A stretch of 64,000 nucleotides of DNA from positions 1 to 64,000 of the forward strand of contig JAUIKE010000012.1 of the NCBI GenBank assembly GCA_030430845.1. The letters run 5' to 3'. Positions 29,572 through 31,244 of the stretch are shown here, piece by piece (positions within the stretch are counted from its first letter, which is position 1; each line of letters begins with the position of its first letter). Origin of the DNA: Bacteroidia bacterium. GTDB lineage: Bacteria; Bacteroidota; Bacteroidia; Chitinophagales; Saprospiraceae. Both the position numbers and the translations under genes were made by a program. The notes below the pieces were generated by a model. The model saw only the letters and a list, made by a program, of their open reading frames with translations, was not told the origin of the DNA and did no database searches.

Positions 29572-29613
29572 TAGAAGCGGCCCTGGCCGCTTCTATCATA
29601 CATTTATTTCTAT
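29554..29613. terminator. bidirectional hairpin, 29-bp perfect arms, overlapping the 3' ends of both convergent CDSs
   Basis: ATAGAAATAAATGTATGATAGAAGCGGCC CT GGCCGCTTCTATCATACATTTATTTCTAT. Confidence 0.85.
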
Positions 29614-30237
29614 CTTCTCAAAGATCTCATCTAACTCATCATAAGACTTATATCCTACTTTTTCTTCCTCTCCACCTTTCACATTAATGCCTAGAGGCTT
29701 CAGCTCTTCGAGAATTTCGTCAATGTTACTTTCGTCAAAATTGAGGCTCAAGAGTATGGGATGCTCCTGCATCAGTTCCTTCAATTCATCCAATAAATTT
29801 TGCTGAATAAAGGCCCAATCTATCCCGTTTTTATCAAAATTGAGGATAAAAACCTCAACCAGGTCGGCATTTTGGTCAAAAACAGGGCGAAGGCTATCCA
29901 GAGAGGTATCTTTTTCGACCACTATTTCCTGCATGACGGGCAGTAGTTCGCTGATAGATTTCAAAGTATTGTAATCGGTGAATGGCCCTACCTGAAGCTG
30001 TTCGATTTCCAGGACCTCCATAGCGGACTTGACCGTTTCCAGATCCGGCAGATTAAATTCGCCCACGATTTTCACACCATCCACCCACTCTTTAATGGCT
30101 TTCATATTTTTGGGCTCGATGTAATCTTCGCTGCCGGCCTCCAGGTTAAACCCCAGCCATTCGACTTCCCAGGCGGCGAAGTAGCGGGCATCGGTCAGGT
30201 TGGTAATGGAACTGGCCTTAACTTTCGTTTTTAGCAT
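29596..30237 (-). CDS. phosphoribosylanthranilate isomerase-like (TrpF-like) TIM-barrel protein
   Basis: KVKASSITNLTDARYFAAWEVEWLGFN resembles TrpF N-terminus. Confidence 0.65.
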   Translation of the reverse strand: MLKTKVKASSITNLTDARYFAAWEVEWLGFNLEAGSEDYIEPKNMKAIKEWVDGVKIVGEFNLPDLETVKSAMEVLEIEQLQVGPFTDYNTLKSISELLPVMQEIVVEKDTSLDSLRPVFDQNADLVEVFILNFDKNGIDWAFIQQNLLDELKELMQEHPILLSLNFDESNIDEILEELKPLGINVKGGEEEKVGYKSYDELDEIFEKIEINV

Positions 30238-30286: not shown

Positions 30287-30452
30287 AGACATGTCATGTT
30301 TAAACATGACATGTCTGGGCCATTTCGACACGTCTTATCCACAAAAACTTGATTATCAATAGGTATGAACGTTGAAAAGGACATGACATGTTTAAGACAT
30401 GTCATGTCCTTTGAATCCAAACATGTCATATCTAGATATGACATGTTTGGAT
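30287..30452. repeat. cluster of three large palindromes sharing ACATGTCAT/ATGACATGT
   Basis: 30287-30316 AGACATGTCATGTTTAAACATGACATGTCT; 30376-30412 AAAGGACATGACATGT ttaag ACATGTCATGTCCTTT; 30415-30452 ATCCAAACATGTCATATCTAGATATGACATGTTTGGAT. Confidence 0.9.
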
Positions 30453-30539: not shown

Positions 30540-31244
30540 CTATTCGACCATACTCAACACTTGCTGAGGCCTTAAGCCCATATCCTTCAGCTGAAATTTA
30601 TTCCCATAAAAGACATTAAAATCCACCGGCCCATCAATGCCGGCCAGGCGGCCCCGATTGCCATATTGCCAGAACTTCCAGTCCTTCTGGTCCTCCAGGT
30701 CGGGCTTTCGATAGCTGTAGCGAGCAATCCAAAGCGGGTATTCATCAAAATGACCGGCCAGGTGTTCGTTATAAAATTTCAGATTGGTATAAATAATCGG
30801 ACGGATATCGAAGTGCAGCTCGATCATATACAGCCAGGTGCGCATCTGGGTGATGAGGTGGATCTTATCACTGCCGTCCAGGACTTCTACGTCCAAAACC
30901 GGCGGCAGATCGCCGAAATCCATATCGACCAGATCAATAAAATTCATGGCTTGCTCTTCAGCCGGCGTTTGCGGCCTGAAAAAGTGGTAGGCACCTCTCA
31001 GTATTCCTACACGCTTCATTTCTTCCCAGTTGGAGGAAAAGAGTCCGTCTCTATGAGTGGCTCCTTCTGTAGCTTTGACAAAGGCAAAAGTAATGGCTTG
31101 CTGGGCAACCGAATCCCACTGAATTTCTTTCTGGTGGTGAGACACGTCTATGCCATGTACTTTAAAGCCTTCCATCCTAATGGTTTCGCGTTCACAGGAT
31201 TGGAAAAGTGCCAGCAATAAAGCTAAAGTCATTAAACGCTTCAT
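30540..31244 (-). CDS. glycoside hydrolase family 25 (lysozyme) lipoprotein
   Basis: HGIDVSHHQKEIQWDSV, FAFVKATEGATHRD, AYHFFRP, DLPPVLDVEV, PLWIARY. Confidence 0.92.
   Translation of the reverse strand: MKRLMTLALLLALFQSCERETIRMEGFKVHGIDVSHHQKEIQWDSVAQQAITFAFVKATEGATHRDGLFSSNWEEMKRVGILRGAYHFFRPQTPAEEQAMNFIDLVDMDFGDLPPVLDVEVLDGSDKIHLITQMRTWLYMIELHFDIRPIIYTNLKFYNEHLAGHFDEYPLWIARYSYRKPDLEDQKDWKFWQYGNRGRLAGIDGPVDFNVFYGNKFQLKDMGLRPQQVLSMVE

Follow-up and report, generated by a model that had tools for sequence, protein, structure and literature searches.

What kind of element packs three large palindromes, all built on one half-site, into a single gap between two genes? This arrangement is found in the window that we analyzed, a stretch of 64 kb from the genome of a member of the Saprospiraceae (G000). 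A preliminary description of the sequence had proposed an operator array for a dimeric regulator, a cruciform or recombination hot spot, or stacked RNA hairpins. Our analysis indicates, with a probability that we put at about 0.8, that the cluster is a single copy of a REP/BIME-like repeat specific to the genus and associated with a REP-associated tyrosine transposase (RAYT). This domesticated transposase most likely has the palindromes as its target. The dispersal of the palindromes, the RAYT gene that they flank and the palindromes that related RAYTs have of their own point to such an element and not to an operator array. REPs and RAYTs have been worked out mostly in Proteobacteria with GTAG-tagged hairpins, and it is a GT[AG]G foot of the hairpin that defines the main REP superfamily.

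Three palindromes between two genes

The palindromes have the lengths given in the preliminary description, and complementarity is 100% in all three (Table 1). Two of them had been called loopless, which holds for the shortest and the longest. The neighbours are also those named before, and the Pfam matches agree with both. When the whole window was scanned for the half-site ACATGWCATGT with up to one mismatch, six were found, four of them exact, in line with the six or more counted earlier. All six lie within the element and the rest of the 64 kb has none. Shuffled versions of the window contained 0.71 half-sites on average, and none of 100 shuffles reached six. An Rfam identity for the region was discarded, the weak miRNA-type matches being far below the gathering scores and reflecting hairpins in general.

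Table 1. Location of the element, its parts and the flanking genes in the window.
Feature	Position	Strand	Details
Whole element: three REP-like nested palindromes and a spacer with an IHF-like site	30287..30452	.	Same extent in copies at three unlinked loci
Palindrome 1	30287..30316	.	Loopless, 30 bp: AGACATGTCATGT-TTAA-ACATGACATGTCT
IHF-consensus match	30342..30354	-	AATCAAGTTTTTG (consensus WATCARNNNNTTR, 9/9 defined positions), midway between palindromes 1 and 2
Core inside the spacer	30350..30358	.	TGATTATCA
Palindrome 2	30376..30412	.	37 bp, 16-bp arms, 5-nt loop: AAAGGACATGACATGT-TTAAG-ACATGTCATGTCCTTT
Palindrome 3	30415..30452	.	Loopless, 38 bp, half-sites ACATGTCATAT / ATATGACATGT
PRA isomerase (TrpF)-like gene	29596..30237	-	PF00697, 2e-8; start toward the element (51 bp to the first half-site)
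GH25 family protein gene	30540..31244	-	PF01183, 1e-47; stop toward the element, 93 bp off

A repeat dispersed in two species

The motif is neither single nor isolated. Exact copies of ACATGTCATGT number 177 in the window's genome, against 2 for the reversed control, and they form at least 46 clusters. A second species of the same genus (G001, the MAG Saprospiraceae bacterium IP29b_bin.15) has at least 43. On the other hand, the full palindrome pattern was found in none of the 394 other Bacteroidota genomes sampled, and a search with the DNA of the element in 58 other relatives gave nothing beyond one match in G037, single and weak (9.6e-4), that we take as chance. A lone match (L120), at one site only, was seen in Gemmatimonadetes.

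Short palindromic repeats (20-40 bp) with many dispersed extragenic copies are REPs in the broad sense. They come here as pairs or triplets, with favoured centre-to-centre distances of 39-39.5, 92-94 and 105 bp. Four unlinked copies, the one in the window included, can be aligned between the outermost edges of their palindromes and no further, indicating that the triplet was copied as a unit. Judging from these sequence comparisons, doublets at favoured distances and copying as a unit, the features that mark BIMEs and REPINs, are both present. The 105-bp class in the second species (L087, L090, L096, L098, L103, L104 and L112) adjoins large paralogous repeat-rich genes, with which it was apparently co-duplicated.

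A transposase gene flanked by the same palindromes

On contig 281 of the window's genome two clusters flank a gene for a RAYT of 226 aa (L072/L164). The orthologous RAYT gene of the second species, at an orthologous locus (L095/L165), is likewise flanked on both sides. The protein matches NF047646, the family model of REP-associated tyrosine transposases, over nearly its full length at 1e-16, with a score of 61.2 bits where the curated cut-off is 80, and the same model is matched by all 11 aligned homologs. The HxH and YxxxNP motifs (H60, H62, Y136, N140 and P141) are invariant in the 11 sequences, as in Y1/HuH transposases of this kind, and a profile of the RAYT finds the solved TnpA_REP structure 4er8 at 1e-5. 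In the window's genome the motifs read NHFH / FQ / YVNYNP, and most homologs in which the motif was found have NHFH / FQ / YIHxNP.

PF01797 misses this RAYT (L072). The 12 other Y1 transposase loci that it detects in the two genomes served as an internal specificity control, and as none of them has an exact half-site nearby, these transposases were rejected as partners. The cruciform or recombination option of the preliminary description came nearest, in the sense that these REP-like repeats are tied to a single-strand DNA transposase of the HuH/Y1 type. A site-specific recombination site, with 11-bp arms and a core of 4-5 bp, was considered and rejected, the loop being of 4 or 5 nt and no recombinase being linked.

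Palindromes beside related RAYTs in other genera

We sampled 50 homologous RAYT loci from Saprospiraceae for palindromes with arms of at least 11 within 300 bp of the gene. They were present at 36 loci, at 15 of them on both sides, and absent by these thresholds at 14. Flanking on both sides occurs in other genera too (for example L175, L174, L177, L178, L198 and L204). The sequence of the palindrome differs by genus: GTTTACTAAAC types are found in L174, L177, L178 and L198, GTGTGSCACAC types beside the RAYTs of L188-L190, AAACCTATAAGGTTT at L200 and AAGGTGACACCTT at L166. When the palindrome type was placed on the RAYT tree, six changes were required (the minimum being four), against a mean of 11.4 after shuffling, and none of 200 shuffles was as low. 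The REP type thus tracks the RAYT tree, in agreement with reports from other bacteria that RAYTs and REPs co-evolve (PMC2817692, PMC8266576).

A hairpin nested within the arm (stem of at least 4, loop of 3-5 nt) was detected in 30 of 55 distinct RAYT-flanking arms; over 2000 trials, shuffled arms gave 3.5 on average and never more than 11. The arms of related RAYTs are not independent in this count, and the nested design recurs with unrelated sequences. The ACATGWCATGT half-site is found again in a genome of another genus (G030), where 30 palindromes with a 6-nt loop are dispersed (0 in the control) and also adjoin the RAYT. A triple nested palindrome with ACCTGTCAGGT half-sites (L205:2137-2189) adjoins a second RAYT of this genome.

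Genomic positions and the operator reading

The clusters are intergenic. Of the 67 stop codons that face a cluster, 49 are at most about 28 bp away from it; start codons are typically 50-100 bp away. Many clusters sit between divergent genes. Some 11 positions are common to both species; at one of them (L048/L111) the cluster is upstream of the same gene in the two genomes and the other neighbour differs. At 14 further loci, including the window's TrpF-like locus (ortholog L222), the ortholog in the second species has no half-site. For one of these, the convergent locus L054, we tested the gene with its stop toward the cluster, which leaves at least 13 occupied loci to be counted as empty in the sister species. 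Three empty loci were aligned. Their genes are conserved and the gap is too diverged to define the target site; with intergenic DNA at saturation in the comparison of the two species, neither a target duplication nor a clean empty site could be defined. The shared positions exceed what random insertion would produce, and old insertions or selection must be assumed for them. The mix of shared and lineage-specific loci fits insertions both old and young, a part of which may have been kept for a use.

If the palindromes were the operators of a regulon, a dimeric regulator would bind ACATGWCATGT sites upstream of dozens of genes. The usual distance to the start codons, the positions common to both species and the PadR-like regulators that adjoin several clusters would all suit such a regulon. 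However, some clusters fill gaps between convergent stops (L059, L076), clusters often begin at stop codons, their neighbour genes are functionally diverse, and the loci empty in the sister species include that of the window. Besides, palindromes of this family stand on both sides of the RAYT gene, and those beside other RAYTs are different. We therefore consider the operator array of the preliminary description improbable. The PadR-like genes (about 110 aa, recognized by eye) have their start toward the cluster at L047, L052 and L067 in the window's genome and at L110 and L116 in the second species, perhaps by chance or common neighbourhood; an operator of PadR was rejected, as most clusters have other neighbours and the association with the RAYT explains more.

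Nested architecture of the palindromes

We scored 178 palindromes across the clusters. The nested unit reads RG-ACATGWCATGT-YTAR (or a 5-nt loop)-ACATGWCATGT-CY, and the half-site is itself palindromic about one pivot base (ACATG-W-CATGT), which makes the whole a palindrome of palindromes. Both pivots are A or T in 176 palindromes, and the two bases are complementary in 140 of these, whereas about 104 would be expected from the column frequencies; the long palindrome thus keeps its symmetry. The pivot pair may be T/A or A/T, in either order, and, where the ends of BIMEs and REPINs stand in inverted orientation, these palindromes are symmetric. The consensus of the foot is RG/CY; no more than 7 of the 178 have GT[AG]G at 6 nt or less from it, and the family is not of the GTAG type. 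The outer arms that differ and stay self-complementary, pointed out before for the window, are seen across the family: locus-specific outer complementarity (score of at least 6) was detected in 17 of 178 palindromes, against a mean of 2.9 and a maximum of 9 after shuffling.

Calculated in silico with DNA parameters, the long hairpin of each palindrome has between -12 and -17 kcal/mol, and the two small triloop hairpins are much weaker, 0 to -4 each. On a free single strand the long form should accordingly prevail, and a role for the small hairpins would require that the protein or supercoiling favours them.

The spacer and its IHF-like site

The 66-nt spacers are nearly unrelated (median identity 0.35, compared with 0.32 when shuffled). 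In spite of this, 38 of 64 contain the IHF consensus WATCARNNNNTTR, a number to be read knowing that the spacers have partly a common ancestry and that the matches are not 38 independent events; dinucleotide shuffles gave 1.2 on average and 5 at most. The location of the match is also restricted. In the 87-95-bp spacing class, 12 of 16 full-consensus matches are 24-26 nt from the nearer palindrome, and in the 101-106-bp class the match is at 16, 26 or 28 nt, the main positions being about one helical turn apart. The word TGATWATCA appears in 13 of 64 spacers (0.1 expected). A site for IHF between two REPs, as in BIME-1 (RIP), is therefore present at the level of the consensus. The genome of the window has two clear PF00216 matches to DNABII genes, and a host DNABII protein (HU/IHF-like) may bind at the spacer site. 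A DnaA box (TTATCCACA, 30335-30343) was rejected as a feature of the spacer, as it was found in 1 of 64, that of the window copy itself. Spacers of the 105-bp class (such as L081:210-288) have a second conserved word, GGGATATSTCC, near one palindrome, resembling a degenerate half-site ATATGTCC.

The stacked RNA hairpins of the preliminary description would make the palindromes bidirectional terminators, or hairpins stabilizing mRNAs, that act as RNA at 3' ends. The closeness of the facing stops (49 of 67) and the strength of the predicted hairpins, which refers to DNA parameters, are in agreement with this. Mismatches of GU type on the coding strand exceed slightly those of AC type (23 vs 12), a difference that is not significant. 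Yet many clusters lie between divergent genes, no consistent T-run follows the hairpins in the sequences that we viewed by eye, and an IHF consensus at a fixed position in otherwise unrelated spacers would have no role in an RNA. The conserved site points rather to a function at the DNA level. As the main explanation this one has about as little probability as the operator array; a role as RNA is possible as a secondary use or side effect. Sites for a nucleoid or segregation protein that organizes the chromosome, with the adjacency to the RAYT as a coincidence, are the least probable explanation, since the dispersal, the strongly conserved palindromes, the favoured spacings and the IHF-like site would suit them but the RAYT is associated in both species, and with other palindrome families in other genera, and many loci are lineage-specific.

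A possible mechanism for the REP/BIME-like repeat

Going by the known biochemistry of TnpA_REP, the palindromes would fold into hairpins on single-stranded DNA. The RAYT would act on them in trans, and complete pairs or triplets would be copied by it into other intergenic regions. A DNABII protein of the host (HU/IHF-like) may bend the spacer, as IHF is known to do, and bring two palindromes side by side. Some copies may be retained as terminators or as supercoiling or nucleoid sites, which would explain the positions common to both species.

Comparison with known REP systems

The closest layout is that of E. coli BIME-1 (RIP/RIB), a REP doublet with two close REPs, intergenic and often beside stop codons, whose inter-REP sequence binds IHF (PMC2817692). 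IHF binding is thus known for BIME-1, whereas in the family described here the IHF-like site is a consensus match. The palindromes are also unrelated in sequence and type, without GTAG, with nested arms and often with a third palindrome. The layout apparently evolved separately. REPINs of Pseudomonas fluorescens (PMC3116915) are similar in being REP doublets at favoured distances, associated with a RAYT and replicated as a unit. However, their ends are oriented imperfect palindromes in inverted arrangement; here each end is symmetric, making orientation hard to define.

Among transposases, subclass 2.6 of TnpA_REP (RAYT group 5) comes from Bacteroidetes, and the text of PMC6006769 describes 'atypical secondary structures' on the flanks of its genes, which lack GT[AG]G and have copies elsewhere in the genome, all of which resembles our case. 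Its motifs are NH[LIV]H / WQ / YIH[QN]NP, different from NHFH / FQ / YIHxNP, and its structures are described as 'weaker' while those found here are strong; that text says nothing of nested arms or of an IHF site. Subclass 2.1 shares FQ, NH[YF]H and a size of about 230 aa, but is reported there without a nearby REP, unlike the RAYTs considered here. By the motifs described, the RAYT of the window's genome is intermediate between subclasses 2.6 and 2.1. The CGTC-tagged REPs (PMC3733652) are short palindromic repeats that occur in Bacteroidetes as well; they have the CGTC tag and no dedicated transposase, while our family flanks a RAYT and has no evident CGTC tag.

We suggest tentatively, at somewhat less than even odds, that this clade of Bacteroidota RAYTs uses a palindrome of palindromes, able to form one long or two triloop hairpins, and that the paired elements of this genus independently gained an IHF/HU bend site at a fixed position, so that a bent synaptic complex like that of BIME-1 would have arisen twice. 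Our literature search found no paper in which elements of this kind have nested arms or an IHF site; for PMC6006769 this refers to its text, and priority is uncertain. That the IHF consensus stands at a fixed distance also in a family with no sequence relation to BIME-1 and a different type of hairpin suggests that bending belongs to the way in which these elements function, which can be tested. The nested arms point to another mode in which HuH transposases recognize hairpins, and the many Saprospiraceae genera in which a RAYT has its own palindrome provide ready pairs of protein and target for co-evolution experiments.

Palindromes of the local REP type were also seen inside the RAYT ORF (L168:1732-1764 and L170:952-985), an arrangement reported for RAYTs of subclass 2.4. 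Besides, contig 54 of the window's genome encodes a second RAYT (39% identical; L196, positions 1498-2049), and upstream of it lies a different palindrome, TAGACCTCAAAGGTTTCGAAACCTTTGAGGTCTA (L196, 1304-1337), perhaps of a second REP family.
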